From NCBI GenBank assembly GCA_003599865.1, contig QZKS01000017.1, positions 1 to 45,209 on the forward strand: a DNA stretch of 45,209 bases, written 5' to 3'. A program made the translations under genes and the position numbers. Shown here in pieces: positions 1,530 to 19,862 of the stretch. Under the pieces are notes generated by a model, which was not told where the DNA came from, searched no databases, and saw nothing but the letters and a program-made list of their open reading frames with translations. Every line of letters begins with the position of its first letter. The stretch's first letter is position 1. Origin of the DNA: Desulfobacteraceae bacterium (lineage in GTDB: Bacteria > Desulfobacterota > Desulfobacteria > Desulfobacterales > SURF-7).

Positions 1530-1730
1530 TTTTTCCCGGTATGTTGAAAGTAAGCCATTGATGAATTGTCCTTTTGGGGAAATATCATCAACAAACGGCG
1601 GCATTGTCAAGACATAGTAAACAATATGATGGATCAATTGCGCAGGGGGAAATAAAAAAGGCAATAAATAGTATTGATTATATTTCAGAGTGGTTGGATG
1701 GTTGAAAATATTTTGTCGATGGAATCTCTG

Positions 1731-4443: not shown

Positions 4444-5328
4444 TCATTTCTCCGAATCAAGGGATTGCATGTTGGTGATCCATTCCGGAGGTTTCCTTCT
4501 TCCGGAGCTGACATCTCTCATCTTCAACCCGGCAATGTTTTCAAAAAACCCGCCTTTCGGATCGCATATCCAGAGATCACAGACAAGCTGTTCGGGACTG
4601 GTTTTTACCGGCGTTATCCTGGCAATATAACCATTCCCGGGAATTGTCCGGCGGAAGATCGTCCGTTTTTCAAAACCTACCGGAAAACCGATAAATTTCA
4701 GAAAACACTGGCACCATACACAGGCGGCATGAAAGGCTGCATCCAGTGGAAACGGCGAGCCCAGGGGATCGGTCGAGGCTTCACTTATCGGCGCAGAAAT
4801 GTTTGCCATCACGCCGTTTTCGGAAATCAAGAGATCACCGGTAATATTATGGTAGGACGGCCCAAAGGGAACCAGCTCCCGGTAAACCGCACGGGATGAT
4901 ACGGAAAAGGTTTTTCCTTCGAGCGATATCAGTTTTTCAAAAGACGGGAATTCCGCTTCCGGAGTAGTTGCAGACGGAAAACAGACGGAAACATGTTCTT
5001 TTTGCCTTAAGATGGCGAGTTTCCTGGACTTCATCCGGGTGACCAGTTTGCTTTCAATGGTACCGTCCTGTTTTCGGGAAAGTTCATTAAAGCCTTCAAT
5101 CGTCTCCTGATCTCTCTGCAAAATGAGAAATTTATCAAAATCGGCGTTCAGAATGAGTTCCGTGTTGATTTCCGGAAAACAGGTTTTTGCGGAGGCGGCC
5201 AGGATCTGCATGGCTTCGACAGCCGGAAAAACGGCATTGTCCTCAAACCGGTGATCCATGAGATAGGGATGCTGCCTGATCGTCAGGGGGATTTGCTGAA
5301 AATCACCTATTTGGGAAAGATTTGCCAT
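4444..5328 (-). CDS. PKS-type double-hotdog dehydratase, stand-alone
   Basis: A 294-residue protein with the layout of a polyketide synthase dehydratase domain (PS-DH). The N-terminal hotdog carries HPYLMDHRFEDNAVFP, where H26 is the likely catalytic His of the HxxxGxxxxP motif; the Gly is Asp30 and Pro35 is kept. The C-terminal hotdog carries VPFGPSYHNI and PLDAAFHAA, where D196 is the likely catalytic Asp. Both catalytic residues are therefore present. These domains usually sit inside modular or iterative type I PKSs; here the domain is a free protein in a type II system. It overlaps the end of the upstream thioesterase gene by about 20 bases, which indicates coupling. It probably removes water from a beta-hydroxyacyl-ACP, perhaps at a different chain length or stereochemistry from the FabZ-like pair. 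Confidence 0.8.
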   Translation of the reverse strand: MANLSQIGDFQQIPLTIRQHPYLMDHRFEDNAVFPAVEAMQILAASAKTCFPEINTELILNADFDKFLILQRDQETIEGFNELSRKQDGTIESKLVTRMKSRKLAILRQKEHVSVCFPSATTPEAEFPSFEKLISLEGKTFSVSSRAVYRELVPFGPSYHNITGDLLISENGVMANISAPISEASTDPLGSPFPLDAAFHAACVWCQCFLKFIGFPVGFEKRTIFRRTIPGNGYIARITPVKTSPEQLVCDLWICDPKGGFFENIAGLKMRDVSSGRRKPPEWITNMQSLDSEK

Positions 5329-5786
5329 AAATGAATTGTTTTGTCGTCAATCCCCACAGGTTTCCCGGATGTGTTGACGGCGCAATGCCTGGTAAAACCA
5401 ATACAGACAATGTCTCCGGTTTCCTGGTGGGTGATGACGTAATCGAATTTCAGTTTAACCCTCTCCAGATCGGAAGGGCGCGTATAAATCAACATCGGGT
5501 CATCATAGTAAAGAGGGGTATAGTATTTGATGCCCACTTCGATGATCGGATAAACATAGCCGCTTTTTTCCACTTCACTGTAGGGATAAGCCGTATCCCG
5601 CATGAGCGAGGCCCTTCCGAATTCAAAATACCGCAGGTAATTGGCGTGGTATACCACCTGGGAACGATCCGTATCCACATATAGTGTCCGGCTTTGGCAC
5701 TGGTGCCAGACCTGGTTGTCGGTTTGATTTCGGAAATAGGGTTTTTCGGGGTCAAGGGCGATGGGAATAAACGGCTTTGGTTTCAT
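5307..5786 (-). CDS. YbgC/4HBT-type acyl thioesterase
   Basis: A 159-residue single hotdog protein. The family signature is clear: LYVDTDRSQVVYHANYLRYF, with D40 as the expected catalytic Asp of 4-hydroxybenzoyl-CoA/YbgC thioesterases. I chose ATG 5786 because it has an AAGGAG ribosome site and lies 1 base after the stop of the KS gene. The open frame continues upstream to 6059, but that part only shadows the KS gene. The enzyme would hydrolyse an acyl-ACP or acyl-CoA, releasing or proof-reading the polyketide/fatty chain. Its own end overlaps the start of the PKS-type dehydratase. A related thioesterase is encoded at 29910, outside the cluster proper. Confidence 0.88.
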   Translation of the reverse strand: MKPKPFIPIALDPEKPYFRNQTDNQVWHQCQSRTLYVDTDRSQVVYHANYLRYFEFGRASLMRDTAYPYSEVEKSGYVYPIIEVGIKYYTPLYYDDPMLIYTRPSDLERVKLKFDYVITHQETGDIVCIGFTRHCAVNTSGKPVGIDDKTIHLWQIFPK

Positions 5787-5787
5787 A

Positions 5788-7053
5788 CTATACTCCTTTA
5801 AACACGATACAGCAGTTTGTGCCCCCGAATCCGAATGCGTTGGACAGAAAAATTTCATAGTCATGCTTCCGGACCGTATTGGGAACCACATCGATATCGC
5901 CAAGGTCCGGGTCCGGAATATGGTTGATGGTGGGAAGAATAAGGCCATTTTGCATGGCTTCAATGGAAAGAGCCGCTTCGATGGCAGCCGAAGCACCCAG
6001 GGTGTGTCCGATCTGGGATTTGTTGGATGAAACCGGAATCTTTTGTAATTTTTTCCCAAATACGGCGTTCAGGCATTCGACTTCCGTAAGATCTCCCCTT
6101 TTGGTGGATGTGCCGTGCGCGTTTACATACTGAATATCGTTTGTCTCAAGCCCTGCATCATCGATAGCCTGAGAAATCGACCGGATGATGGTTTCCGGGT
6201 TCGGCTTTGTGAAATGATAGGCATCCGATGTCATCCCGACCCCAAGAACTTCAGCTTTTGGCGTCAGGCCCCATGTTTGGATCATTTCTTCTGCGGCAAG
6301 AATCAGCACTCCACCGCCTTCCGACAGAACCATGCCTTTGCGGTCAATGCTGAAAGGGCGGGAAGCCTGTGCCGGGTCCTGATATGCCCGGTCCTTTGGC
6401 GTGATGTTGATGGTGGCCAGCATATTGGAGAAACCCTGTACGATTTCCGGTATGATGCAGGTTTCCGCGCCGCCGGCAAGCACAAAGTCACAATCTCCAT
6501 CCCGTATCATTCTGGCGCCCATACCAATGGCGTAATTTCCGGATGCGCAGGCTCCCTGAGGGGAGAAGATCGGGCCGGTAAAACCGAGCAGCATGCCCGC
6601 CTTTCCGGATGGAAGGTTGGCACACAAGTTTGGCAGAAGATAGGGGCTCACCTTATACGGTCCCTGATGGGTATAATTGTCCATGGCAATGCGGTATGCA
6701 TCGGTGCCGTTTAAGGCGGATCCGATCAGACATGCCGTCCTGGGGCCGGTTTGCCGGTTGATTTCCAGTCCGGAATGTTCCAGCGCTTCCTTGCATACCG
6801 CCATGGTCAGGATGACAAAATCAGCATTCCAGTTGTAGACTTCCTTGGGATCGATAAAATCAAATTCACCGGGGTTCCAGTCCGGAATTTCACCCACGAC
6901 ATTGCTCAAAGACTGGACCTCGCAGCGTGTTACCTTCCGGAACCCCGCCTTTCCCTGAACCGCATTTGCCCAGGTCTTCTCAAAGGTTTTTCCAAGGGGT
7001 GTTGCCGCGCCGTAACCGACAACAAATACGCGTCTGTTTAATGGCGCCTTCAT
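5788..7053 (-). CDS. Beta-ketoacyl-ACP synthase (FabF-like), first of a tandem pair
   Basis: A 421-residue KAS II-type condensing enzyme with a full Cys-His-His site: C169 in GACASGNYAI, NAHGTSTKRGD, and NKSQIGHTLGAS. It catalyses decarboxylative condensation of malonyl-ACP with an acyl-ACP in the cytoplasm. ATG 7053 is preceded by a strong AGGAGAG site; a frame starting at 7080 lacks one. It ends 1 base before the thioesterase start. It is clearly paralogous to the next gene (7093): both end with similar PTIN-x-x-PDP and NAFGFGG-x-N segments. The pair may form a heterodimer or act at different chain lengths. Both keep the active cysteine, so neither is a chain-length factor. Confidence 0.92.
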   Translation of the reverse strand: MKAPLNRRVFVVGYGAATPLGKTFEKTWANAVQGKAGFRKVTRCEVQSLSNVVGEIPDWNPGEFDFIDPKEVYNWNADFVILTMAVCKEALEHSGLEINRQTGPRTACLIGSALNGTDAYRIAMDNYTHQGPYKVSPYLLPNLCANLPSGKAGMLLGFTGPIFSPQGACASGNYAIGMGARMIRDGDCDFVLAGGAETCIIPEIVQGFSNMLATINITPKDRAYQDPAQASRPFSIDRKGMVLSEGGGVLILAAEEMIQTWGLTPKAEVLGVGMTSDAYHFTKPNPETIIRSISQAIDDAGLETNDIQYVNAHGTSTKRGDLTEVECLNAVFGKKLQKIPVSSNKSQIGHTLGASAAIEAALSIEAMQNGLILPTINHIPDPDLGDIDVVPNTVRKHDYEIFLSNAFGFGGTNCCIVFKGV

Positions 7054-7092
7054 ATCTCTCCTGGTATGTTTTGATGGCAAGTCATCCCGGGC

Positions 7093-8340
7093 TTATATCC
7101 TTTGGAACACGACACAGGAGTTGCAGCCGCCGAAACCAAACGCATTTTTCAGAAGAAATTCCTGACTATGGTTCCGTGCGCCTTCCGCAATACAGTCGAT
7201 CGGGATGTTTGGGTCCGGCGTATAGTTGATGGTGGGCAACAGCATGTTATGATCCATTCCTCTGATCGCAAAAATCGATTCAATGGCGCTCGATGCACCC
7301 ATGGCATGACCGGTCTGGGACTTGTTTGCAGAAACCGGTGGAATATTGTTTCCAAACACCGCGCAAAGTGCGTCGTATTCAACCTGATCTCCAACCCTGG
7401 TTGAGGTGCCATGGGCATTGACCGCGTCGATCTGCTTCGGCTCAATCCCCGCGTCGGCAATGCTTTCACGGATACAGCGTTTCACTGTTTCAAAATTCGG
7501 TGCCACAAAATGATGGGCATCCGATGTCATGCTCCATCCGGCAATTCTGACGGTATGGCCAAGCCCGTGGGCTTCGGCAAATTCTTTTGTGGCAATCACA
7601 ATGCAGCCCGCTCCTTCTGAAACGACAAATCCCCTTCGGTCAAGGGAAAACGGCCTGCTGGCCCTTGACGGCGGCTCCGGAGGTTGCCCGGGTTTGGGGG
7701 AAAAGGTGCCGTTCATGGTCGAAAAGCCGGCTACGATTGGCTCTACCAGTGCAAAATCCACGGCTCCGCAGATAGCCACATCCGCTTTTCCCTGTTCCAG
7801 CAGCATGGAACCGATAATCACGGATGTGATCCCGGTCGCGCATGCAGTAATCGTGGATGTAATCGGCCCGGTTGCTTTTGTCAAGATGGATATTTTTCCG
7901 CCGACCATATTGATGCAGGAATTCGGGTTGGTGAACGGATGGGGCAGTTTTCCTTCCGTTCTCATGCGTCTGTCCGCATGAATAACGGCGTCCTGTCCTC
8001 CGACTGCGGAACTGAACGTGACGGCAACACGGGGAGCGATATCGGGTGTGATTTCCATTCCGCTTTTTTCAATGGCACGATGGGCGACGAGCAGGGCATA
8101 TTTGAAAATCGGGGATGTCCAGTGAGCCATCTGGCGGGGTGCCAGAAACGGGTATGCGGATTCATCAATGGCGTCGACCTGGCCGGCGATTTGAACCGGA
8201 AATTGATCATCAATGGGAAAACGGGTGAGCCGGCCAATACCGCTGTCGCCCCTCAGTGCTCTTGCCCATTGGGTTTCCATATCGGTCCCGAGGGGGGAGA
8301 CACAATCATATCCGATAATGACTGTCTGTTTTGGATTCAT
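7093..8340 (-). CDS. Beta-ketoacyl-ACP synthase (FabF-like), second of a tandem pair
   Basis: A 415-residue KAS II-type enzyme. The catalytic triad is complete: C167 in ITACATGITS, NAHGTSTRVGD, and NKSQTGHAMGAS. Compared with its neighbour it has a proline-rich insertion (PKPGQPPEPPSRASRPF) ahead of the FSLDRRG segment and a wholly different substrate-entry region, so it is a diverged paralogue rather than a recent copy. It lies 39 bases upstream of the other KS and 35 bases downstream of a radical SAM gene, in one leftward transcription unit. The start ATG has only a weak ribosome site (TTGAG). Confidence 0.92.
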   Translation of the reverse strand: MNPKQTVIIGYDCVSPLGTDMETQWARALRGDSGIGRLTRFPIDDQFPVQIAGQVDAIDESAYPFLAPRQMAHWTSPIFKYALLVAHRAIEKSGMEITPDIAPRVAVTFSSAVGGQDAVIHADRRMRTEGKLPHPFTNPNSCINMVGGKISILTKATGPITSTITACATGITSVIIGSMLLEQGKADVAICGAVDFALVEPIVAGFSTMNGTFSPKPGQPPEPPSRASRPFSLDRRGFVVSEGAGCIVIATKEFAEAHGLGHTVRIAGWSMTSDAHHFVAPNFETVKRCIRESIADAGIEPKQIDAVNAHGTSTRVGDQVEYDALCAVFGNNIPPVSANKSQTGHAMGASSAIESIFAIRGMDHNMLLPTINYTPDPNIPIDCIAEGARNHSQEFLLKNAFGFGGCNSCVVFQRI

Positions 8341-8375: not shown

Positions 8376-9374
8376 TTACCAGGGAATGAAGCGGTAGAGT
8401 TTTGCAAACATCTCATAGACCTCGATCCAGTTTTGGAGATCCTCGGCAGTGCGGATGTGCGCCCTTTTGTTGACCATTACCCAGCTCATGTGCGCTGCGC
8501 CGTCCTTGCAGGTCGAGCAGTCTCTGGTCTCCGAGGTGCAGCAGCGGTGCATGGTTTTCAGATCCGATGCCCATCGGATAAAATGGATCAGCCTTTTCGG
8601 CTGCGGTTTTCTGTTGTCAAAGGTTTCCGTAACCGAAGGACATTCCATCCAGCCGAATTTCCGGCCAAGCATGGTTCCGGAAGTGATCACCTTGTGGTAG
8701 TATCTGGATGAAATCACCGTATCCGGATAATGATCCAGCATCTCGTCCATTTCCGCACGGATGTCGATCAGTTCCTCGTCTCTCCAGGAAAAACCATCAA
8801 CCCCTTCATCATTGGACAGCAGCTGCATATGGACCTTTACACCGATATCTCTGATCTTTTTAATGATATGTTCGGTTTTGCCGATCTGCCGCGGTGTGAT
8901 GGTATACAGGTAATAGGTGTATTCATCGCCTTCATAGTGTTTGCTGGAAACGGCAAAGGTGTCTTTTCCGCGGAGAATTTTTTCATCTTTTTCATCTCCC
9001 CAGAGAGAGATGCCCACCATCATATCCGGAAACCGGTCCCTGGGGACCTTGATCTGGCCGTTGGTGGCACAGAAGGTTGGCAGACGTTTGTAGAAGGCCT
9101 CCACGCGGTCCAGGCAGAGCGTCGGCTCCCCCCCGATCAGTATGGCCAGGTTGACGCCCCGTTCTTTTTCTTTTTCAATAAAACGTTCCCATTTCAGAAT
9201 ATCCATTTCTTCCTGTGCAGCCTTGTGTTCGCCGGAAGAAAAAAAGAAGCAGCCCTTGCATCGAAGATTGCATCGATTGGTGACATCATAGATAGAGCTT
9301 CTGATATTCAGTTTGGATATATTTTTATATCGTTCATACCATTGTTCATCCAGCAATGAACTGACAGTTATCAT
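8376..9374 (-). CDS. Radical SAM protein with C-terminal auxiliary cysteines (sister of 9409-10509)
   Basis: A 332-residue radical SAM enzyme. The SAM cluster motif is C35-x3-C39-x2-C42 in DVTNRCNLRCKGC. The usual GGEP segment (ILIGGEPTL) follows. Near the C-terminus a second cysteine group, C278, C279, C286 and C289 (RCCTSETRDCSTCKDG), with C245 further upstream, could bind an auxiliary iron-sulfur cluster as in SPASM/twitch enzymes. No B12 domain is present. The neighbouring gene encodes a protein of the same plan, so the two probably act on related steps or as a complex. Their substrate is unknown, and a small-molecule or ACP-bound intermediate of the cluster is the simplest guess. No peptide precursor gene is visible nearby. 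Confidence 0.85.
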   Translation of the reverse strand: MITVSSLLDEQWYERYKNISKLNIRSSIYDVTNRCNLRCKGCFFFSSGEHKAAQEEMDILKWERFIEKEKERGVNLAILIGGEPTLCLDRVEAFYKRLPTFCATNGQIKVPRDRFPDMMVGISLWGDEKDEKILRGKDTFAVSSKHYEGDEYTYYLYTITPRQIGKTEHIIKKIRDIGVKVHMQLLSNDEGVDGFSWRDEELIDIRAEMDEMLDHYPDTVISSRYYHKVITSGTMLGRKFGWMECPSVTETFDNRKPQPKRLIHFIRWASDLKTMHRCCTSETRDCSTCKDGAAHMSWVMVNKRAHIRTAEDLQNWIEVYEMFAKLYRFIPW

Positions 9375-9408: not shown

Positions 9409-10509
9409 TCAATTTTTAAGCCTTGTTTCGGCCTTTGGGGGACACATGATATGGTTACAGAGATTTTTTCCTTTCGGGTATCCCCTTACCCAAACCGACA
9501 GATACGTGTCAACATAATCCAGCCATGCCTTGAATGTTTCCGGATCGGCGGCATGGCGAAACAGTTTTGCGGTGACAACCGCGCTTCCTGCCGCGTAATG
9601 CCTGCAGTCTGAACAATCCGTATCCGGAACGCAGCAGGCCATGTTTCGATCCCAGGTCAGGTCGGTCCTATATTGCCTGAAAGACCGCCCCAGGCCGATG
9701 TCCGTGGACGGGTTCATTCTGGGGTAGGGACAGTCGTATAATACATGCAGCCCGTATTGATGGGTATGCGCCACGGCATTGTAGTGGGAAAACAAGACAT
9801 GATTCGGATATTCCGCAAGAAGGGTCAACATGGCTTCCCGTGTGCGGGAAAGGGATTCTTCCGTATGCCGGAGGCCTCCTTTATATCCAACCGGTGAGGA
9901 AAACATGTTGAAGGTGAGCCTGCAGTCGTTTTTTTTCAGAAACGCAGCGACCTCAAACACTTCATCGATATTTTCCCGGGTAAAGGTATAGACAAAGATC
10001 GCCCGCGGATCATTCCGGTAATTATCGACCTGCCGCTGAAGCATATTTTTGGCTCTCCGGACACGCAGGCTGGTTTCGTCATTCCCCCAGACCGAAATGT
10101 GGATATTATAATCCACAAGAGGGGAAATTTTATTCAGACCATTGGATGCGATACAGCCCAGCGGAATCTCCTGATAGCAGACCGCAAGCAGAGACGGCAC
10201 AAGGGATGGCTCCGCACCGGCAAGGACCACATAGGTGATCCCTCTTTTTTTTTCCTTTTTCATGAGCTCCTGCCAGAGCAAAGGGTCTTGAATTTCTGCT
10301 GTGAACTGTTTATTCCCCTCAAAATAATAACATCCCTCACACCGGATATTGCAGTGGTTGGACATGTCATAGGTGGATTCGCGAAGAAAAAAGAATTTTC
10401 GAACCTTTTCCCATCTCTCGCGAACAATCGGATCGGCAAGGATTTCGGAAAATTTCCATTTTCCGTCCTCGTTGTTCCGTCGGTTTTTTTGATTATTTGC
10501 GGTTTCCAC
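9409..10509 (-). CDS. Radical SAM protein with C-terminal auxiliary cysteines (sister of 8376-9374)
   Basis: A 366-residue radical SAM enzyme starting with GTG at 10509, with a GAGGA site about 12 bases upstream. The motif C53-x3-C57-x2-C60 lies in DMSNHCNIRCEGC, and VLAGAEPSL replaces the usual GGEP segment. The C-terminal region has ACCVPDTDCSDC, matching the auxiliary cysteine pattern of the next gene (CC-x6-C-x2-C), plus an upstream YDCPYP. The first 45 residues form a polar extension absent from the sister protein. The two genes are 34 bases apart in the same operon. I cannot name the reaction. Confidence 0.85.
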   Translation of the reverse strand: METANNQKNRRNNEDGKWKFSEILADPIVRERWEKVRKFFFLRESTYDMSNHCNIRCEGCYYFEGNKQFTAEIQDPLLWQELMKKEKKRGITYVVLAGAEPSLVPSLLAVCYQEIPLGCIASNGLNKISPLVDYNIHISVWGNDETSLRVRRAKNMLQRQVDNYRNDPRAIFVYTFTRENIDEVFEVAAFLKKNDCRLTFNMFSSPVGYKGGLRHTEESLSRTREAMLTLLAEYPNHVLFSHYNAVAHTHQYGLHVLYDCPYPRMNPSTDIGLGRSFRQYRTDLTWDRNMACCVPDTDCSDCRHYAAGSAVVTAKLFRHAADPETFKAWLDYVDTYLSVWVRGYPKGKNLCNHIMCPPKAETRLKN

Positions 10510-10552: not shown

Positions 10553-10816
10553 TTATGAAAGTGCATCCTTGATATATTCAGCGATCAAACGAATGGTTGT
10601 GAGTCCGGGGTAATCATCTTCATCAAAACGCATTCCATACTCATCCTGCAATACCAGCGCTACGGTAGCCAGATCCATGCTGTCAATGCCGATTTCATCA
10701 ACCAGATCAATGTCCGGATCAAAGGTTTTGGGAGTCACATCTTCAAGTTTGAGTTCTTCGATCATCACGTGAGCAACACGGAGGATAATATCGCTGATGC
10801 TTTGTTCAGTCCTCAT
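10553..10816 (-). CDS. Acyl carrier protein
   Basis: An 87-residue carrier protein with the phosphopantetheine attachment site at S46 in EIGIDSMDLATVALVLQ. It is acidic and of typical ACP size. Its start overlaps the end of the FabZ-like gene by 11 bases, which suggests that the two proteins are made in fixed ratio and work together. It is one of five ACPs encoded in the region. The sequences around the serine differ clearly (GIDSMDL here, LDSIDA, LDSIDA, GIDSIDV, GFDSFSL), so they probably serve different steps. Confidence 0.92.
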   Translation of the reverse strand: MRTEQSISDIILRVAHVMIEELKLEDVTPKTFDPDIDLVDEIGIDSMDLATVALVLQDEYGMRFDEDDYPGLTTIRLIAEYIKDALS

Positions 10817-11174
10817 TTTTGTCCCTTTCAGTAGAAATAATGCTTTTGCTTCTAAGTGTTATGATGCCCTGGCAGGCGGTCTCTCCTTTGACCTGAATGA
10901 CAAATGTATATGCATCCGGTTCAAGCCGATTCCGAACCGCCTGTATTTCAAGCCGATCATCCGGATGGATAATCTGCCGGAATTTTACCTTTTTAAATCC
11001 CTGGACCGAAAGCTTTGGATCGATTGACTGCCGGATCGTGTCCAATACAACCGAAAGCTGGGCAATACCGGGGAGTACCGGATTATCCGGGAAGTGCCCT
11101 GAGAACCACGGTGAGTCATGACGGAATTCACGGGTTGAAAAAAATATGGTTTCTGCATTCCGGTCACTGGTCAT
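10806..11174 (-). CDS. FabZ/FabA-like hotdog protein (ApeI-like), acidic catalytic residue replaced by Ser
   Basis: A 122-residue single hotdog protein. The FabZ hallmark WFSGHFPDNPVLPGIAQL is present with the catalytic His at H27. In FabZ/FabA an acid (Glu/Asp) lies 14 residues after this His; here that position is S41. By itself the protein therefore lacks half of the dehydratase site. FabZ-type active sites are built at a dimer interface with His from one chain and the acid from the other, and the rightward array encodes a hotdog protein (15503) with the opposite defect. It overlaps the ACP genes on both sides (4 and 11 bases). Family comparison points to the ApeI-type dehydratases of aryl-polyene clusters; a thioesterase-like role is an alternative. 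Confidence 0.8.
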   Translation of the reverse strand: MTSDRNAETIFFSTREFRHDSPWFSGHFPDNPVLPGIAQLSVVLDTIRQSIDPKLSVQGFKKVKFRQIIHPDDRLEIQAVRNRLEPDAYTFVIQVKGETACQGIITLRSKSIISTERDKNED

Positions 11175-11476
11175 CGCAACTGTCCAAAAGAAGATACGGA
11201 TGATGGATCGAGTTCAAGCTGTCGTGCCATATGATCCACAATATCCTGGATTGTAATTATTTTTTTTAAATCATCATCCGTAATCTCAATATCCGTTTCC
11301 ACTTCGATCATACCGGCGATATTAAATGCATCAATGCTGTCCAGTGACAGATCTTCATACAGGCTGATCTCCGGCAGGAATCGATCTTCCTGAATTTCAA
11401 ATTCTTTTATAAAATAATGTTTCAGAAACAAAAAAATGTCATCGCGGTTTCTGAATCTTTGGTTTTGTAACGTCAC
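11171..11476 (-). CDS. Acyl carrier protein (tandem ACP, distal copy)
   Basis: A carrier protein of about 101 residues with the pantetheine serine at S47 in EDLSLDSIDAFNIAGMIE. I favour GTG 11476, preceded by GGGGAAG at good spacing; a TTG at 11500 would add eight residues not shared by its paralogue. It is a close relative of the next ACP gene (11551): both have RDDIFLFL/RNDIFLFI starts, DSIDA cores and ITIQDIVD/ITVQDVVD ends, so this is a tandem duplication. Its stop overlaps the FabZ-like start by 4 bases. Twin ACPs are a hallmark of aryl-polyene-type clusters, where one ACP carries the starter and the other the growing chain. Confidence 0.88.
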   Translation of the reverse strand: MTLQNQRFRNRDDIFLFLKHYFIKEFEIQEDRFLPEISLYEDLSLDSIDAFNIAGMIEVETDIEITDDDLKKIITIQDIVDHMARQLELDPSSVSSFGQLR

Positions 11477-11550
11477 GGGTCTTCCCCAAAAACGATGCAA
11501 TGAAATGGTTCAAACCAACCGGGAATCATCATTGATGGGATATCCATTCT

Positions 11551-11832
11551 TCAGACCGTAGCTTGTGAATTCAGATCCGCATTATTTTGTTGCGAAGTCT
11601 TTGCAATGATATAATCCACCACATCCTGAACCGTTATAATGGTTTTTAATTCCTTTTCATTGGTTTCAATATTCATTTCCGCTTCCAGCATTCCCACCAT
11701 ATCCAGCGCATCGATACTGTCCAGTTCAAGATCTTCAAACAGGCTGGATTTTAAGTTTATTTTTTTTTCGGGGATTTCAAAAGTATCCACAAAATATTTT
11801 TTAATAAACAGAAAGATATCATTCCTATCCAT
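11551..11832 (-). CDS. Acyl carrier protein (tandem ACP, proximal copy)
   Basis: A carrier protein of 93 residues with attachment serine S39 in EDLELDSIDALDMVGMLE. ATG 11832 is chosen over a TTG two codons upstream. It is paralogous to the ACP at 11171, and the genes are 74 bases apart. It lies 97 bases downstream of the deacetylase-like gene; this is the largest gap inside the leftward array apart from that at 2220-2460, and no hairpin is evident in it. Confidence 0.9.
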   Translation of the reverse strand: MDRNDIFLFIKKYFVDTFEIPEKKINLKSSLFEDLELDSIDALDMVGMLEAEMNIETNEKELKTIITVQDVVDYIIAKTSQQNNADLNSQATV

Positions 11833-11929
11833 GGTCAATTCTACACCCTATGCTAAATTTCACATTTTAAAAACAACTTTTCTTTTTAATTTGTCATCAT
11901 AATTATGTCAAGGAAATTGAATGCTTCCG

Positions 11930-12814
11930 TCAGGAGGCATCACAGGGGAAATCATGGGGAGAATCTTGTACAACAGTCTGAATTGATGTCATTACCGGTC
12001 TTTGTATCAGATCGGCAAGCGGGATGATCTTCCAGCCGCGTTTTTGAATATTGTCCAGGATGGTTTCGATTTCCATCAGCCAGTCTGATACAAACCATTT
12101 TTTATTCTTTGCCGGAACAATGTCATGCAGCAGAATAATATCACCGGGTTTTATTTTCCGCAGGATTTTTTGGGACAGATTTCCGATCCTCCGGTTTCCC
12201 ATGTCAAAGGCACGGCATCTGTAATTCACACAATACATACCGAGCCGGGTCAGGATGCTGCCGAGTTTCGGATTCGTGATACCTGCCGGCGGCCGGAATG
12301 CCAATGGGTGAATTCCGTAACTGTTCAACAGGGCTTGCGTGCGCTGAATTTCCTGAAAAAGCCTTTTTGCGCTTTTTAACATGATCAGGGGATCATGGTG
12401 ATAGGAATGGTTTCCGATGGTATGACCTTCCCGGATGATTTTCCGGATCAGATCCGGATGGCGGGAGGCATGTTCACCGGTTACGAAAAAGGTGGCGGTT
12501 GTTTTTTTTTCGGCCAGCAGGGTCAGGAGGCATGGGGTGGATATTGGGTCCGGACCGTCGTCAAACGTCAGGGAGACAACGTTGCCGGAAGGGTTCCCCC
12601 GGGTAATAACGGGAAGATAATAACCGGTACCCGTGAAGAATGGCGCAATGAAGCTGATGATGACAAAAAGAGCCAGGGGGATGATGGAAAAGGTGACATC
12701 CCATGCCGATACCAGCAGGGCCGATGATAAGGAAACCATTCCCAATAGATGGGAAATCGGTAACCGTCCGGAAACGGATTGCTCCGGGATATGTTCGTTT
12801 CTTGTCGTGTTCAT
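11930..12814 (-). CDS. Membrane-anchored polysaccharide deacetylase (NodB-like) family protein
   Basis: A 294-residue protein with two N-terminal hydrophobic segments (about 22-60) followed by a NodB homology domain. The metal and catalytic motifs are intact: LTFDDGPDP (base and metal Asp), HTIGNHSYHH (metal His pair), FRPPAG, and DIILLHD. The family removes acetyl groups from N-acetylated sugars in the envelope. Its start overlaps the KS-CLF stop by 4 bases (ATGA), so translation is coupled to a polyketide enzyme. This implies a role in the pathway, for instance deacetylating an amino-sugar head group that is then acylated, or deacylating an intermediate. That link is inference. The orientation of the domain (periplasmic or cytoplasmic) cannot be fixed from sequence. 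Confidence 0.85.
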   Translation of the reverse strand: MNTTRNEHIPEQSVSGRLPISHLLGMVSLSSALLVSAWDVTFSIIPLALFVIISFIAPFFTGTGYYLPVITRGNPSGNVVSLTFDDGPDPISTPCLLTLLAEKKTTATFFVTGEHASRHPDLIRKIIREGHTIGNHSYHHDPLIMLKSAKRLFQEIQRTQALLNSYGIHPLAFRPPAGITNPKLGSILTRLGMYCVNYRCRAFDMGNRRIGNLSQKILRKIKPGDIILLHDIVPAKNKKWFVSDWLMEIETILDNIQKRGWKIIPLADLIQRPVMTSIQTVVQDSPHDFPCDAS

Positions 12815-14979
12815 GACGGAAGAAGCTCGATGGCCGTGACAAAGGTTCCGGTCCCGATCAGCAAAATGCCTTTTCCCTGAAGGAGGATATCGTTTTCACC
12901 GGCAAGCGGTGCCGGTATTCTGCCCGATTGGAGAAGCCTGATTCCGAAAACCGCCGCCGTGGCGGATGCGGATGCATACTCGCCGCTGTATTGGCGATAG
13001 TCGATCACCGGCAGGTTGAACCCGGTCCGGGACAGAAATTCCCGGAGCTGATCCTCTCCGATTTTGCGATGGGCAGCCGGTATGCCGACAAGCACGGCAC
13101 CGAATCTCCGGTCGATCCGTTCCGGGCCGCCAAGACCCTTGATCAAGGCCGGGATGATATCCGGGTGTTGATCCGCCCTTTCATAAAAGCGGGAAGAAAT
13201 GGTCAATCCGCCGGCAGCATCGGCGCGTTTCAGCAAAAGGGCGCCCCCGCCATCGGAATGTTCCGGGACACGGGACACGGAATCATCAAACAGATGCGAC
13301 AGTTTTTCATGATGTTCATCGGCACCCATCACCAGAACGGATTCATCCGGACCGGCCGGATGTAGCAGGTCGGCGGACAACAGGGCCTGTTCAAAGGAAT
13401 AGTCTCCTCCGGTGGTGGTGATATTGGCCCCCTTGGATTGAAAAAGCATGGCAACCTGACCGGCGGCTGCATTGTGAACCGATCCGATGAAATCCGTGGG
13501 GCTGCAGAACTGCCCGCCGGATTCAAACAGCTTTGAGAGAAAATCATATGTTTCGGAAAGCGCACCCCATCCGGTTCCCCAGAAAATGGATGAAGGGGGG
13601 CAAAAGGAATCGGTATTCTTTTGCAGGGAAGAAGCCAGAGATAGAGCCATCCGCGGGAGACGTTTCAATCTCCGGACGAGCTTCGGCGGCAGGTTTTCGG
13701 AAAGCGCCGCCATCGGAAATATTCCCTTGCAGGATTTTCCGTTCAGGAACCGGCTCAGGGTTGCGTCGGTTCTTCCGGCACCGGTAAGGCATTCGCAGCC
13801 GATGACCTTCAGGCTGTCTTTTGGGGCCGGAGATGCCGAATTGTTGTTTTCATCTGCCGGGCCGATCACAACGGATGCGTTGTTGCCGCCGAATCCGAAT
13901 GAATTGGATAACACCGTTTTAACGGGGTGTTTCATCGGTTTCATTACCGGCATGAGAGCAAGCTTCGGGTCCGGTCGGGTGCATCCGGTATTGGCGGGGA
14001 TTCGGCCGTCCCGAATACAGATGGCCGATACTGCGACCTCGATCACGCCGGCTGCGGCCAGCGGATGCCCCATTGCTCCTTTGATGGAAGACAGAAACGG
14101 TTTTTTATTGCCAAACATCCGGTTGACCGCCGTAGCCTCGGATAAATCATTATCCCTGGTTCCGGTTCCGTGCAGATTGATATAGTCGATATCGGACGGT
14201 GACAGCGCGGCATCCTCAATGGCCCGCCGCATGGCATGGTATGCGCCTTTGCCTTCCGGATGGGGTGCGGTCGGATGATAGGCGTCACAGGAAAGCCCGG
14301 CACCGAGAATTTCCGCACAGGCATTTTCCGGTATATTTTCACTGGATTCCAGAAGCAGGGCCGCCGCCCCTTCGGCAACCGTCATGCCTTTCCGGTCCTG
14401 GTCAAACGGGCGCGCACCGTCCGGATCAATGAGCTGAAGAGAATGAAATCCAAAATAGGTGAACCGGCAGAGAGCGTCTGCTGCAACAGCCAGGACTTTT
14501 TTGGCCCGGCCGGAACGGATCAACTCAAGGGCGATTGCCAGGGCGGCCGTACCCGAAGAGCATGCCGTGGAGATGGTGATGACCGGACCGTTGCATGCTG
14601 TTTGCCCGGCAATATATTCGGCGACAGAACCGGCAGCATGATATTGATATTTTTGGGGATCGGTTTCATTATCCTTCAGGAGTACTTCGGTGAGCGACAT
14701 CCCCCCTGTGGAGGTCCCCATGACAATCGCGTCAACAGCACCCCGGCTGCTTTTCAGCGCATCTCTTGCCGCGATGATGGCAAGGCGGTGGGTTCTCGGG
14801 ATGTCATCATCCGGAAAGGGGAGGCAGATTTCTCCGGTGGGAAGGATGGTCTGCGAAGGAAACAGCCGCAGCGGCCTGATTTCTTTATTGCCGGTTCTGA
14901 TAAAGGCCGCTATCTCATGAACCCCGGTTCCGACAGGGGTGATCATTCCGATTCCGGTAATAAAGGTTCTTGCCTTCAT
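12811..14979 (-). CDS. Fused ketosynthase-chain length factor (KS-CLF)
   Basis: A 722-residue protein made of two thiolase-fold halves. The first (about 1-395) is a complete KS: C140 in ISTACSSGTAAL, NLHGTGTRDND, and KGAMGHPLAAAG. The second (about 400-722) is a KS-like domain of the Ketoacyl-synt_2 type, recognisable from DFIGSVHNAAAGQ. Where the active Cys would be it reads ITTTGGDYSFEQAL, so the nucleophile is absent, as in chain length factors. In aryl-polyene systems KS (ApeO) and CLF (ApeC) are separate proteins that pair; here they are one chain. ATG 14979 follows the ACP stop by 4 bases; an open frame extends to 15069 but overlaps the ACP. No frameshift or stop separates the halves, and the linker contains an Asn/Ser/Pro-rich stretch. 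Confidence 0.88.
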   Translation of the reverse strand: MKARTFITGIGMITPVGTGVHEIAAFIRTGNKEIRPLRLFPSQTILPTGEICLPFPDDDIPRTHRLAIIAARDALKSSRGAVDAIVMGTSTGGMSLTEVLLKDNETDPQKYQYHAAGSVAEYIAGQTACNGPVITISTACSSGTAALAIALELIRSGRAKKVLAVAADALCRFTYFGFHSLQLIDPDGARPFDQDRKGMTVAEGAAALLLESSENIPENACAEILGAGLSCDAYHPTAPHPEGKGAYHAMRRAIEDAALSPSDIDYINLHGTGTRDNDLSEATAVNRMFGNKKPFLSSIKGAMGHPLAAAGVIEVAVSAICIRDGRIPANTGCTRPDPKLALMPVMKPMKHPVKTVLSNSFGFGGNNASVVIGPADENNNSASPAPKDSLKVIGCECLTGAGRTDATLSRFLNGKSCKGIFPMAALSENLPPKLVRRLKRLPRMALSLASSLQKNTDSFCPPSSIFWGTGWGALSETYDFLSKLFESGGQFCSPTDFIGSVHNAAAGQVAMLFQSKGANITTTGGDYSFEQALLSADLLHPAGPDESVLVMGADEHHEKLSHLFDDSVSRVPEHSDGGGALLLKRADAAGGLTISSRFYERADQHPDIIPALIKGLGGPERIDRRFGAVLVGIPAAHRKIGEDQLREFLSRTGFNLPVIDYRQYSGEYASASATAAVFGIRLLQSGRIPAPLAGENDILLQGKGILLIGTGTFVTAIELLPS

Positions 14980-14983
14980 CCAG

Positions 14984-15244
14984 TCAGCTCTTTGAGCGGT
15001 TTTGATGGATAAAGTCGGCCAGTGTCCGGAGGGACCGGAACACCTTTTCACCGAGTTCCTTGTTATCAATCACTACGCCATAGTCTTTTTCAATCATCAT
15101 GACCAGTTCCAGCACGTCGATGGAATCGATTCCCAGATCACCGCCGACAAGCTGGGCATCGACTTGAAAATCATCCGGAGTCACATCAATCAGATTCAGC
15201 GTTTCAATCACTTTTCCCTTTAATTCATGCAGCAGATTTTCCAT
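14984..15244 (-). CDS. Acyl carrier protein, first gene of the leftward array
   Basis: An 86-residue carrier protein with attachment serine S41 in GGDLGIDSIDVLELVMMIE. The segment up to KDYGV and the later KVFRSLRTLADFI closely recall the ACPs encoded beside KS/CLF genes of aryl-polyene clusters. AGGA precedes the ATG by about 7 bases. It is 4 bases upstream of the KS-CLF start, so it is the obvious carrier for that enzyme. A possible -10 box and a direct repeat in its promoter region are listed separately. Confidence 0.93.
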   Translation of the reverse strand: MENLLHELKGKVIETLNLIDVTPDDFQVDAQLVGGDLGIDSIDVLELVMMIEKDYGVVIDNKELGEKVFRSLRTLADFIHQNRSKS

Positions 15245-15982: not shown

Positions 15983-16717
15983 ATGGATCAGCGGGAGACC
16001 AGGATAGCCATCGTGACCGGTGGAAGCAGGGGGATCGGCCGGGCAATTGCCCTGGAACTGGCAAGGAACGGGTATCATGTGATCGTGAATTACCGGTCTG
16101 ATACGGCCGGTGCGGAAGAAACAGTGGGCATGATGGAAAAGGAGGGGTTTACCGGTGAAACCTCACAATTCGATGTTTCCGATGCCGAAGGAACCAAGCA
16201 GGCTCTGGATCAAATCATATCCCGTTATAAATATATTGAAGTGCTGGTCAATAATGCGGGCATTGCAGCGGATGGATTGTTTGTCATGATGCCGGAAAAA
16301 GACTGGGATGCCGTGATTACAACCACATTAAAAGGGTTCTACAATGTCACGAAACCGGTCATGAAAAGGATGATCCCCAAAAAAAGAGGCTCGATTGTAT
16401 CCATTTCTTCGGTGGCCGGTTTGATCGGAAACCGGGGGCAGGCCAATTATTCCGCAGCCAAGGCCGGTCTGATCGGTGCCAGCCGTTCGATAGCCGCGGA
16501 AGTCGCACGTCTGGGAATCCGGGTAAATGTCGTTGCTCCTGGATTAATCCAGACAGATATGATAAAGGAGGCGCCGGTCGATATCATCAAGCAGATGATT
16601 CCCATGGCCAGAATCGGGCAGCCGGAAGAGGTTGCCAGGGTTGTTCGATTTTTATGTTCGGAAGACGCTTCCTATATCACGGGCCAGGTGATATCCGTAA
16701 ACGGGGGGATGGTGTAG
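15983..16717 (+). CDS. 3-oxoacyl-ACP reductase (FabG-like SDR)
   Basis: A 244-residue short-chain dehydrogenase. The nucleotide site [12 protein letters not shown], the NNAG motif, the catalytic Ser in SISSVAG and the Y-x3-K pair in NYSAAKAG are all intact, as is the [10 protein letters not shown] segment typical of FabG. It reduces beta-ketoacyl-ACP to beta-hydroxyacyl-ACP with NADPH. An AGGAGA ribosome site precedes the ATG. It is the only ketoreductase in the cluster, so it should serve every KS present. Its place between the ApeP-like and LolA-like genes matches aryl-polyene clusters (ApeQ position). Confidence 0.93.
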
Positions 16718-16809
16718 GCCGGTTTGCCTGTTTGCCGGTTGGCCGGTGAACGGGATTGGGGGTTTGAAGGTTGATTGATTCCGGTTCGGCCGGGGGATGA
16801 GTTTTGATA

Positions 16810-17421
16810 ATGAAACGATTTCTGTATATATTATGCAGTTCTTTTTTTCTGATTTCCGGCGCTCTTGCCGAACCATGGGCCGGCACGCTGGAACAGATCC
16901 GGAAGGAGGCTGCCGGGGTTTTTTCCGTACGGGCGGAGTTTACGCAGGAAAAGCACATGAAAATGCTGGCAAAACCGCTGATTTCAACCGGCGTGGTTTT
17001 ATTCAAAAGTCCGAAATCCATTCGATGGGAATATTTCAAGCCGGTTCAGAGCATCCTGATGATGGATGACGGCCGGGTAAAGCGATTTATCGAAGGGGAG
17101 GCCGGGCTGGTGGAAGATCTCGGACCCGGCAAGGAGATCATGCAGTTTGTCCTTCAGGAAATCACGTATTGGCTCAAGGGGCGGTTTGATGACAGCCCCA
17201 ATTTCACCACCACGTTACAGAGCGGACGAACCATTACACTGACCCCGAAAGAGGAGTCGTTTTCCCGGATGATTGAACGGATCGAGTTACGGCTTTCGGA
17301 TCAGCCGGGGGTCATGGAATCGGTAAAGATAATCGAAAATCAGGACACATATACGGAATACACGTTTCAAAATACACAAGTCAATATACCCCTTGATGAC
17401 GTCCTGTTCCGGAAGATCTGA
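16810..17421 (+). CDS. LolA-like periplasmic lipid/lipoprotein carrier
   Basis: About 203 residues with a cleavable signal peptide (KRFLYILCSSFFLISGALA) and a LolA-like half-barrel. SVRAEFTQEKHMKML is a typical early strand of the family, and KSPKSIRWEYFKP its next conserved block. LolA carries lipoproteins across the periplasm; LolA-like proteins in aryl-polyene clusters (ApeM) are thought to carry the lipid product. ATG 16810 is used, with GGGGGATGAG upstream; a TTG two codons earlier is less likely. The 87 bases between FabG and this gene contain only short GCCGGTT repeats. It overlaps the lipoprotein gene by 1 base. Confidence 0.88.
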   Translation: MKRFLYILCSSFFLISGALAEPWAGTLEQIRKEAAGVFSVRAEFTQEKHMKMLAKPLISTGVVLFKSPKSIRWEYFKPVQSILMMDDGRVKRFIEGEAGLVEDLGPGKEIMQFVLQEITYWLKGRFDDSPNFTTTLQSGRTITLTPKEESFSRMIERIELRLSDQPGVMESVKIIENQDTYTEYTFQNTQVNIPLDDVLFRKI

Positions 17422-18161
17422 TGAAAGCCTCCGGAAATCAACCATCATTAAAACCTTATGCGGCCATTCATCATTCCGGTCTGCTGTTTTGTATCTTGCT
17501 GATACTGGTATCGTGCGCAGCCCTCCCGAAGATTGAACCCTTCCGGTTGCCTTTGCCGGCGGGCGAGGAAATCCGATGCCGGTGGCCGTATTTGACGGGA
17601 AAATGGCAGCTGGTTCATTCCGTCAAAGCGGTCCTGCCCAATGGCCTGCGCCAGTCCATGATCGGAACGATCATTGTTTCACCGGAGCGGAATACGGTTC
17701 ATTGTGTTCTGCTGTCCATTGAAGGGCTGGTACTCGTGGATGCTGTTTATGATCAAGAGGTGATTGTCAATCGCGCGGTGCCTCCGTTTGATGAACCGGA
17801 GGTGGTAGCGGGGCTGATCGATGATGTCCGGCTGTTGTTTCTGAAACCTTCCGGAATGCGCACGGAATTCGGTTTCTCGGAAAAACGCTCAACCATATGC
17901 CGGTACCGGAGCGGGGAGGGAAAGACCGTTGATGTGATTGCCCATCCGGACGGGAACTGGGAGATCAGGCAGTATGGTTCGTCGGACCGCATGGAACGAT
18001 CGGTTAGGGGTTTTTTTGTCGAAAAAAATCGGACAGATGACGGTTTGGGAGAGATTGTCCCGGAAAGGCTTGAATTGACGGCACATGGTTTTGTGGGATA
18101 TGAGCTGTCGCTGGATTTAATCGAGGCCATACCGTTATCTTCACAGGGATTTCCAGAGTGA
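17421..18161 (+). CDS. Outer-membrane-type lipoprotein (DUF3261-like) of polyene clusters
   Basis: A 246-residue protein with a hydrophobic N-terminus ending in the lipobox LVSC (C32), so it is predicted to be lipidated. The residue after Cys is Ala, which does not signal inner-membrane retention. The remainder is beta-rich with no catalytic motif I recognise. Position after a LolA-like gene and general plan suggest the DUF3261 lipoproteins found in aryl-polyene clusters. It could help receive or anchor the lipid product at the outer membrane. The start overlaps the LolA-like stop (TGATG) and its end overlaps the AMP-ligase start by 4 bases. Confidence 0.65.
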   Translation: MKASGNQPSLKPYAAIHHSGLLFCILLILVSCAALPKIEPFRLPLPAGEEIRCRWPYLTGKWQLVHSVKAVLPNGLRQSMIGTIIVSPERNTVHCVLLSIEGLVLVDAVYDQEVIVNRAVPPFDEPEVVAGLIDDVRLLFLKPSGMRTEFGFSEKRSTICRYRSGEGKTVDVIAHPDGNWEIRQYGSSDRMERSVRGFFVEKNRTDDGLGEIVPERLELTAHGFVGYELSLDLIEAIPLSSQGFPE

Positions 18162-19603
18162 ACCTGAAACAATTAATTCGAAAATCCGTACAGGAAAAGC
18201 CTGACAAGACAGCTATTGTGGAAGGGGGCCTCGCGGTTACCTATGATCAGCTGTTCATTATAATTCAGGAGATTGCCGCCGATCTGAAACCGCTGGGTAT
18301 CCGGAAGGGAAGCCTTGTGGGGATTCGCTTCCCGAACAGCATCGCCTATGTGGCCATCACATTTGCCCTCTGGGAGTTGGATGCCATCGTCGTCCCCATC
18401 GGCATGGAATTGAAAACAAGCGAAGTGGAAAATATCTGCGACACCATGAATTTAAACGCCGTGATTCATGACCGGGAATCTCTTTCCGGGGCCGCCGGTG
18501 CGGTGAGCGGATTTCCGATTCATTACTTTGTGGATCATCGATCTCCGGCAATGGAAAACCGGTACCGGGAAAAGGATATTGCCTTTATCCGTTTTACATC
18601 CGGTACAACCGGCGGCTCAAAGGGGGTTGTCCTGAGTCACAGGGCAATCCATGAGAGAATCGAAGCGGTCAATCAGACGCTTTGCATCGGCCCGGAAGAT
18701 ACCATCCTGTGGCTTCTGTCCATGGCGCATCACTTTGTTTCCACCATTATCCTGTATCTTGCCAATAACGCCACCATCGTCGTTGTCAATAAACTGTTTG
18801 CCGGATCGATTCTGGATGCGGTCCATCAGTCGCAGGCAACTGTATTGTATGCATCCCCGTTCCATTATTCTCTGCTGGCAGCGGACACTTCCGACAAAAT
18901 GCTCCCCACCGTCCGGCTGGCACTGTCAACGACCATTGAACTGCCGGATACCGTATTCAATGATTTCTACAGACGATACCGGCTGCCGATATCCCAGGCC
19001 TATGGAATAATCGAAATCGGAATCGTCTGCATGAATACCGAAGCCTCTTCCCGTAAAATCGGGTCTGTGGGAAGGATCCTGCCGGCATATGAAATGAAAG
19101 TGCAAAATACGGATTGCTATCCGGGTGAAAGTCCATTATGTGGAGAACTCTGGTTCCGGGGGCCGGGTTTTTTTGATGCGTATTTCAGTCCATGGGCGGA
19201 TGCGGATACGATCATGAAAGAAGGCTGGTTTGATACCGGGGATATCGGCCGGATTGATGCGGATGGATATGTCTATCTGTTTGCCAGAAAAAAAGATGTC
19301 ATCAATATTGCCGGCATGAAGGTATTCCCCCAGGAAATTGAAGCGGTATTGAACATGCATCCGGATATTGAAGAATCATATGTATATGGATGGAAGAACG
19401 AGCGGTTCGGGGAACTGGTTGCGGCGGACATCGTTCCCAAGGGTTCTCCTTCCGATGTCTCCATAAACGATATTCTTCAGCACTGCAGACAGCGGCTGGC
19501 TTCTTACAAAGTTCCGGAAGATCTGAAATTTGTAAAGGCCATCCGGAAAACAGCGGTGACATCCAAGATCATCCGAAGAAACAATTGGCCTAAAGAAGAA
19601 TAG
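18158..19603 (+). CDS. AMP-ligase / acyl-ACP synthetase (ANL superfamily)
   Basis: A 481-residue adenylate-forming enzyme starting with GTG inside the previous stop. Motifs present: FIRFTSGTTGGSKGVVLSH (A3), SQAYGIIEIG (A5 region), GWFDTGDIG (A7), and ARKKDVINIAGMKVFPQEIE (A8 hinge). The usual C-terminal catalytic lysine region reads VTSKIIRR. It activates a carboxylic acid with ATP and passes it to a thiol, here most likely the ACP whose gene follows 7 bases later. Length and stand-alone form match acyl-ACP ligases that prime type II PKS chains. The acid cannot be predicted from the motifs. Confidence 0.88.
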   Translation: MNLKQLIRKSVQEKPDKTAIVEGGLAVTYDQLFIIIQEIAADLKPLGIRKGSLVGIRFPNSIAYVAITFALWELDAIVVPIGMELKTSEVENICDTMNLNAVIHDRESLSGAAGAVSGFPIHYFVDHRSPAMENRYREKDIAFIRFTSGTTGGSKGVVLSHRAIHERIEAVNQTLCIGPEDTILWLLSMAHHFVSTIILYLANNATIVVVNKLFAGSILDAVHQSQATVLYASPFHYSLLAADTSDKMLPTVRLALSTTIELPDTVFNDFYRRYRLPISQAYGIIEIGIVCMNTEASSRKIGSVGRILPAYEMKVQNTDCYPGESPLCGELWFRGPGFFDAYFSPWADADTIMKEGWFDTGDIGRIDADGYVYLFARKKDVINIAGMKVFPQEIEAVLNMHPDIEESYVYGWKNERFGELVAADIVPKGSPSDVSINDILQHCRQRLASYKVPEDLKFVKAIRKTAVTSKIIRRNNWPKEE

Positions 19604-19610
19604 TATCATC

Positions 19611-19862
19611 ATGGTAAGAATGGAACAAATCAAAGAACAGCTGGTTTTTTTTCTGCAGAATGAAATTTTCGATTCTTCGATCCGGATCGATCCGGATACG
19701 GATCTTTTTGAGACCGGTTTTGACTCCTTCTCTCTGGTCAAGCTGCTGGTGTTTATCGAAAAAAAATACAACCTCCGGATTCCGGAAGAAAAGCTGACCG
19801 AAGACACACTGAGAGATGTAAATCGAATATCAGAGTTGATATATGCTTTTCAAAAAGACTGA
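19611..19862 (+). CDS. Acyl carrier protein paired with AMP-ligase and condensation-fold acyltransferase
   Basis: An 83-residue carrier protein. The attachment site is S39 in FETGFDSFSLVKLLVFIE, a GFDSFS-type core closer to the peptidyl/aryl carrier proteins than to the other four ACPs of the cluster. A second ATG at 19620 is an alternative start. Its end overlaps the next gene by 20 bases. The order ligase-carrier-condensation enzyme is the minimal layout for activating an acid and transferring it to an alcohol or amine, so this carrier may hold a starter or side-chain acid. Confidence 0.88.
   Translation: MVRMEQIKEQLVFFLQNEIFDSSIRIDPDTDLFETGFDSFSLVKLLVFIEKKYNLRIPEEKLTEDTLRDVNRISELIYAFQKD

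Follow-up and report, generated by a model that had tools for sequence, protein, structure and literature searches.

Natural single polypeptides that carry a ketosynthase (KS) followed by a chain length factor (CLF) have been described in multidomain synthases, i.e., PfaC and HglC (the latter arranged as KS-CLF-acyltransferase; passages in PMC3098273), and an intramolecular KS-CLF pairing was proposed for PfaC (in a section of PMC13311796). In type II polyketide synthases, KS and CLF are separate, heterodimerising chains, unlike in the gene examined here, which reads through both halves on the minus strand (positions 12811–14979) of a 45,209-nucleotide stretch of Desulfobacteraceae bacterium (assembly GCA_003599865.1, contig QZKS01000017.1; this whole stretch is further referred to as the window). 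An original prediction, made from the letters of the window, held that this gene is a natural fusion of KS and CLF. We consider it very likely that it encodes a covalently joined KS-CLF that forms an intramolecular pseudo-heterodimer like the PfaC didomain, with a catalytic KS half and a scaffolding CLF half, and that would build a polyene or polyunsaturated acyl chain together with enzymes of the surrounding cluster. The presence of KS and CLF in one polypeptide is supported by sequence, residue conservation, structural models, and the comparison with loci in which KS and CLF are encoded by neighbouring separate genes. The single-chain fusion is thus real, but it is not unprecedented in nature, given PfaC and HglC and given that PfaC was also the first Foldseek match of the whole modelled chain.

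The fused frame, its domains and its residues

The minus-strand frame starts with an ATG and encodes 722 aa without a single internal stop (the longest mechanical open reading frame starts 30 codons earlier, at a TTG within the upstream acyl carrier protein (ACP) gene). It comprises an N-terminal FabF/ApeO-type KS half (residues ~1–376; 13852–14979), a linker (residues ~377–388), and a CLF half (residues ~389–722; 12814–13815). A Pfam scan, i.e., the domain search proposed for both halves, placed ketoacyl-synt (62–214) and Ketoacyl-synt_C (222–332) in the first half and Ketoacyl-synt_2 (PF13723; 428–567) in the second, the last at 54.8 bits against a cut-off of 25, and revealed no non-KS domain in the chain. 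Both halves proved homologous to each other in a profile-profile alignment (322 columns, probability 95, E 9e-9). Moreover, the codon-position base composition was steady across the junction, and the gene is tightly packed, beginning 4 bases past the end of the upstream ACP gene and overlapping with its stop the start of the polysaccharide-deacetylase-family gene by 4 bases. The predicted absence of a stop or frameshift between the halves was therefore borne out by 722 uninterrupted residues and by the same read-through frame in other genomes (see below). A fixed 1:1 stoichiometry of KS and CLF, as put forward earlier, would follow from the single chain.

An AlphaFold model of the whole chain, built from 24 sequences, yielded a confident two-domain structure (pLDDT 92, pTM 0.94), and its first Foldseek match was the KS-CLF didomain of PfaC (6RIW; TMq 0.83 over 885 columns). 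When the CLF half was modelled alone (pLDDT 92.4), it aligned over residues 1–334 with KS-fold proteins. The chain length factor of actinorhodin synthesis (1TQY_B) ranked first (Z 31.6, root-mean-square deviation (rmsd) 3.1, 327 aligned), with FabF matches lying within 1 Z and hence tied. Since 1TQY_B is two-lobed and was aligned over the full length, the CLF half appears to hold both thiolase lobes. These data agree with the earlier assignment of the second half to a KS_2-type fold, and the possibility that this half falls outside the KS superfamily was rejected on both the half-to-half homology and the full-length structural alignment with KS-fold proteins.

At the level of sequence, the best Protein Data Bank (PDB) matches of the CLF half were 6qsp_B and 7f28_A, from entries that are presumably ApeO-ApeC pairs (i.e., the KS-CLF of aryl polyene synthases), while profile searching gave 6kxd_B, 9s5h_C, and 6qsp_B. 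Neither 6qsp_B nor 7f28_A appeared among the best 50 structure matches listed for the CLF-half model, which is no evidence on the fold. According to its PDB title, 6kxd_B belongs to the ishigamide ketosynthase/chain length factor, of which it is the smaller chain. Entry 9s5h was also the best PDB match of the KS half, and its chain C, which matched the CLF profile, carries V, K, and E at three sites (the last two read from a second alignment stretch of only 4 bits). Exactly these residues were published for Kuste3606 at the same three sites (in a part of PMC2649909), so that 9s5h may be an anammox pair.

As originally predicted, the first half carries a full Cys-His-His set, i.e., Cys140 (in the motif ISTACSSG), His270, and His305, to which Lys300 is added. 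Residue conservation was counted over 79 aligned proteins (the window protein plus 78 from named loci) and, separately, over 24 sequences from the phylum. Among the 79, the Cys was present in all 77 sequences reaching that site, and His270, Lys300, and His305 were invariant. In the CLF half, the segment TTTGGDYSF (residues 521–529) indeed occupies the place of the nucleophile Cys segment, with Asp526 opposite Cys140 in both the profile-profile alignment of the halves and a wider alignment. This Cys position is D in 75 and N in 4 of the 79 proteins, the Lys position (R662) is R in all of them, and the second-His position (E667) is E in 65, Q in 12, and D in 2. The place of the first His could be aligned only loosely (V629 in the profile-profile alignment, G632 in the wider one), and no His occurs at residues 627–635 in any of the 79 proteins or the 24 phylum sequences. 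These counts show that the CLF half has lost its catalytic residues. Finally, the pair Arg436-Arg437 is conserved in 79/79 and aligns with Arg30-Arg31 of 7f28_A, a pair that was proposed to contact the ACP in AbApeC (as stated in a section of PMC8358021).

The same counts bear on an improbable alternative that sees the C-terminal half as an active partner domain, with decarboxylating or some other activity, instead of a chain length factor. The nearly fixed Asp at the Cys position (75/79), together with Arg and Glu/Gln at the other sites, suggests that the pocket of the CLF half is under selection, and it might therefore have a chemical role, e.g., in handling malonyl-ACP; moreover, one of the 24 phylum sequences has a His at the second-His site. 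Nevertheless, the half lacks Cys, Lys, and the second His at these sites as well as any His at 627–635 across the 79 aligned proteins, and its best profile matches in the PDB include the ishigamide chain 6kxd_B next to 9s5h_C and 6qsp_B, which argues for a chain length factor.

Distribution and origin of the fusion

A search for the same fusion in related genomes had been proposed as a check. In a family set of 12 genomes (window included), five contained a full fused frame, one a fragment of a fused gene at a contig end (L014), two weaker matches (frames of 413 and 421 aa, each beside a separate KS frame), and four no match. In a draw of 395 genomes from the phylum, 153 had some match, and 20 of these (including the window's own genome) matched at E 3.9e-60 or better, with open frames of 720–865 aa throughout. 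A wide gap separated these top 20 from the next match (E 7.6e-17, a frame of 380 aa), below which frames were mostly shorter. Inspection of 12 weaker loci from both draws revealed in each a KS frame upstream of, and on the same strand as, a separate CLF-like frame; the KS match was whole in ten of these split loci and cut in two (L039 at the contig end, L016 at the end of the fetched stretch).

A scan of named genomes, with peptide patterns derived from fused sequences, gave 207 pattern matches, among them 188 relatives, of which the best 80 were kept. Both halves occurred in one frame in 78 of these 80 loci (the KS part being cut by a contig end in 5 of the 78), the remaining two (L068 and L096) are cut off at their start by a contig end, and a two-gene arrangement was found in none of the 80. 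Because the patterns came from fused sequences and only the best 80 of 188 were retained, this proportion is uninformative on more distant relatives. Five of the 80 loci are titled Spirochaetes, and of 247 genomes from the phylum to which one of these belongs, 11 matched at E 5.5e-49 or better with frames of 727–859 aa (for the 6 that were not already known, fusion was judged from frame length alone).

To place the KS half, a tree of 50 rows was used, with 31 fused rows (30 different fused KS halves) and a small comparison set (10 split KSs from within the phylum plus those of Aureispira, E. coli, and a few more, with a single Pfa row). All 31 fused rows fell on one side of a branch with support 100/99, and they grouped with 11 split KSs (Aureispira plus the 10 from the phylum) with support 99/90. 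Outside this group were the Pfa KS, E. coli ApeO and ApeR, both separate KSs of the window (KS_A and KS_B), and three other single-chain KS halves, several of these rows being on long branches. The CLF tree was weak (fused group 67/100, with Ec_ApeC and Pfa_CLF on very long branches), although its outline agrees with the KS tree, and the argument for a single origin is consequently one from the KS tree. As the fused KSs lie on one side of a branch beside KSs from adjacent KS/CLF gene pairs, a single fusion of two adjacent genes would be the simplest history.

The fused protein might instead be a PfaC-type KS-CLF of a polyunsaturated fatty acid (PUFA) synthase stripped of its downstream domains. 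Such a derivation would account for the identical KS-CLF order in one chain and for the top rank of 6RIW when the complete chain was compared by structure, and the genome does carry a protein of 2389 aa in which two KS domains occur together with an acyltransferase match and FabA-like repeats. In NCBIfam, however, the KS half scored 301.1 bits with PRK09185, above every other model listed, vs. 65 bits with PfaA; it groups with split KSs (99/90) away from the sole Pfa KS used, itself on a long branch; and the Pfa-like 2389 aa protein had no PF13723 match up to E 0.001. Derivation from PfaC was therefore rejected on KS phylogeny (with its one Pfa row) and profile scores, and we deem it very unlikely.

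That two ordinary neighbouring genes were merged by an assembly or sequencing error, which erased a stop or frameshift separating them, has a negligible probability: more distant relatives do carry adjacent KS and CLF genes, and a single error could join such genes because 5 of the 10 whole split pairs have a start codon placed where the two frames would overlap by 4 bases, but independent genomes share the fused frame (78 of the 80 named loci, with two genes in none), the linker (14–19 residues, variable in sequence) has the same position in 24/24 aligned sequences (window included), and a record titled as a strain rather than a metagenome-assembled genome, Desulfatitalea alkaliphila M08but (L123), holds a copy of 722 aa whose Pfam domains are identical. 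The idea of a missed stop between the halves thus fails, and the artefact was rejected; the fusion genuinely exists and is old within this group of anaerobes.

Gene neighbourhood and proposed role of the joined KS-CLF

Conservation of neighbours was counted in the 37 of the 80 named loci that span at least 15 kb (BLASTP, E 1e-6, one best label per frame, so that paralogues may share a label). The fused gene lies in a conserved cluster with radical-SAM, ACP, FabG, ApeI/ApeP-type, and LolA genes. Directly upstream on the same minus strand, ACP4 (14984–15244; Pfam) had a homologue in all 37 loci, which in 35 was the matched gene immediately ahead of the fused one. Downstream on the minus strand follow the polysaccharide-deacetylase-family protein (11930–12814; 12/37), ACP3 (11551–11838; Pfam), ACP2 (11171–11500; Pfam), an ApeI-like dehydratase (PF22818; 10806–11174; 30/37), ACP1 (10553–10816; Pfam; 31/37), two radical SAM proteins (9409–10509, with a Pfam match under the curated cut-off, 29/37; and 8376–9374, 28/37), the separate FabF-like KSs KS_B (7093–8340; 23/37) and KS_A (5788–7080; 26/37), a 4HBT-type thioesterase-like protein with an uncertain start (5307–5780; 24/37), and a PS-DH dehydratase-like protein (4444–5328; 19/37).

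On the plus strand lie an ApeP-like dehydratase of a divergent operon (PF22817; 15485–15940, start uncertain; 29/37), a FabG-like ketoreductase (15983–16717; named from its sequence; 28/37), a LolA-family protein (16804–17421; 25/37), and an AMP-forming acyl ligase (18158–19603), whose label occurred in 11/37 loci at 19–25% identity except for one at 63%. The gene at 17421–18161 and, further along, a B12-radical SAM gene (23864–25129) each had homologues in 25/37 loci. A further B12-radical SAM gene was labelled in 30/37, mostly at 19–31% identity, and is therefore not a close counterpart of the window's gene.

Five ACP-like genes are present in the cluster (at 10553–11838, 14984–15244, and 19611–19862), four of them Pfam-supported and the fifth recognised from sequence only. 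Together with two or three dehydratase types, they suggest more than one acyl chain or starter channel.

A minus-strand gene at 2461–3870 encodes a B12-type radical SAM protein whose best model is the hopanoid C-3 methylase HpnR (250 bits, cut-off 650) and whose label occurred in 5/37 loci (two at 76–87% identity, three at 22–25%). A BtrH_N + DUF4872 protein (549–1664, minus strand) adjoins the lipid cluster. Elsewhere in the window, a 590 aa protein (28205–29977, minus strand) combines DAK2, FakA-middle, and DegV domains, as if both fatty acid kinase subunits were joined.

In the proposed mechanism of the covalent KS-CLF, the chain would fold back so that its two thiolase-fold halves pack as a pseudo-heterodimer within one polypeptide, as the model predicts. 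By analogy with established KS-CLF chemistry, the growing chain would be loaded on Cys140 of the KS half, and malonyl-ACP would be decarboxylated with the help of His270 and His305 before condensing with the growing chain. The CLF half would act as a scaffold, giving the pocket its shape and presenting a putative ACP-docking face at Arg436-Arg437. FabG and the ApeI/ApeP-type dehydratases could then turn each ketone into a double bond on the cluster ACPs, the putative product class being a polyene or polyunsaturated acyl chain.

Several observations temper this picture. The superposition of 6RIW on the whole-chain model has an rmsd of 6.3 at 17% identity, and 6RIW was absent from the best 50 matches of a second aligner, all of which lay on the KS half (which is no evidence on the fold). 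In the 24 phylum sequences, the Cys position of the CLF half varies (21 D, 2 E, 1 S), as does the second-His position (17 E, 5 Q, 1 H, 1 R). The KS half stays below the curated PRK09185 cut-off of 407 bits for ApeO-type proteins, a model that E. coli C_RS05580 passes at 556 bits. We take C_RS05580 of E. coli CFT073 to be ApeO, and in the KS tree ApeO itself sits on a long branch, apart from the group that the fused KSs form with the split ones. Chain-length control, finally, is argued from homology, and the two neighbouring FabF-like KSs could carry most of the elongation.

More speculatively, an anaerobic pathway for polyunsaturated lipids or hydrocarbons might have the fused protein as its core chain builder and be related to the candidate ladderane clusters known from anammox bacteria, in which the dead non-canonical FabFs would be unfused chain length factors, but for now we hold this broader idea to be doubtful. 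If true, a KS-CLF pair that is fused in Desulfobacterota and Spirochaetes would set the chain later modified by conserved radical SAM enzymes. Lipid clusters of anaerobes contain FabF copies that are catalytically dead, an old puzzle of comparative genomics; these copies may then be chain length factors, which provides a testable frame. Moreover, the partners of a type II KS-CLF pair have to meet, while a natural pair joined in one stand-alone chain, with its CLF at full length, offers a scaffold for polyene synthases of fixed ratio.

Comparison with known systems

Like PfaC and HglC, the window protein joins an active-site KS and a CLF without catalytic residues, in that order, in one natural chain, and its predicted whole-chain fold resembles 6RIW (with the TMq and rmsd given above). 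However, Pfa and Hgl proteins carry DH2 or acyltransferase domains in multidomain synthases, whereas the window protein is a stand-alone didomain of 722 aa. Also setting it apart, FabF/ApeO-type models fit its KS half far better than PfaA does, and its CLF half matches PF13723. The same genome also encodes the 2389 aa protein mentioned above (L127 1336–8505, minus strand; contig C85 7000–16000), in which the second of the two KS domains has no Cys and the FabA-like stretches number four, next to the acyltransferase match. It looks like a pfaBC-like PUFA-synthase subunit and would be a second, differently built single-chain KS-CLF.

In many respects, the locus resembles the ApeO-ApeC system. 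The CLF half found its best PDB sequence matches in 6qsp_B and 7f28_A, the KS half scored best with PRK09185, PF13723 is above cut-off in both (54.8 bits here, 225 bits for E. coli C_RS05640), and neighbours of ApeI, ApeP, LolA, thioesterase, and ligase types give a gene content like that of the E. coli aryl polyene cluster. Both also have the SPTxF..SVHN stretch and the Arg-Arg pair (a section of PMC8358021). In E. coli CFT073, on the other hand, KS (C_RS05580) and CLF (C_RS05640) are two genes ~9 kb apart, and the fused KS differs from ApeO in its PRK09185 score and tree position. Moreover, ApeC-type chains measure 204–240 aa and AbApeC has one thiolase lobe only (in the same section of PMC8358021), whereas the fused CLF half has 334 aa and both lobes in the model, which bears on how ApeC was shortened.

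An unfused counterpart is the pAUEa locus of Aureispira anguillae, with the order ACP, KS, CLF, polysaccharide deacetylase, and LolA (WP_264793627.1, WP_264793628.1). Its CLF, annotated as chain length factor, also has 334 aa and PF13723, and was the best BLAST match of the fused CLF half among 9 comparison proteins, but KS and CLF are two genes there and the CLF identity is 32% over 161 residues.

Proteins of Priestia megaterium (WP_013060151.1, 809 aa; L131 7989–10418), Lachnospira eligens (WP_041688922.1, 797 aa; L132 7983–10376), and Streptomyces (WP_331742284.1, 788 aa; L133 4938–7304) look like further single-chain KS-CLFs, with a Cys-bearing KS followed by a second KS fold with N, A, or H at the Cys position. 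Their records name only a beta-ketoacyl-[ACP] synthase family protein, in clusters resembling fatty acid synthesis. In contrast to the window protein, their KS halves lie outside the fused clade and their gene neighbourhoods are different.

Gene content, including several radical SAM enzymes, is also similar in the candidate ladderane/polyunsaturated hydrocarbon type II fatty acid synthesis clusters of Kuenenia and Desulfotalea, as far as the published tables go. In Kuenenia, ACP kuste3350, FabF kuste3349, and the non-canonical FabF kuste3348 have consecutive tags, and the cluster includes the deacetylase-like kuste3351, SAM radical enzymes 3342/3343, and FabG 3341 (tables in PMC2649909 and PMC4790861). 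In these clusters, unlike in the window, KS and non-canonical FabF are separate genes (with gene order taken from tag numbers).

Searches of open-licence PubMed Central, which does not cover subscription papers, turned up no description of this stand-alone KS-CLF fusion in Desulfobacterota. Since PfaC, HglC, and the pfaBC-like protein of the same genome carry a single-chain KS-CLF, such a chain is not new in principle. What is distinct here is the combination of a stand-alone didomain, a KS that groups with split type II KSs, a two-lobed CLF of PF13723 type, and a conserved cluster.

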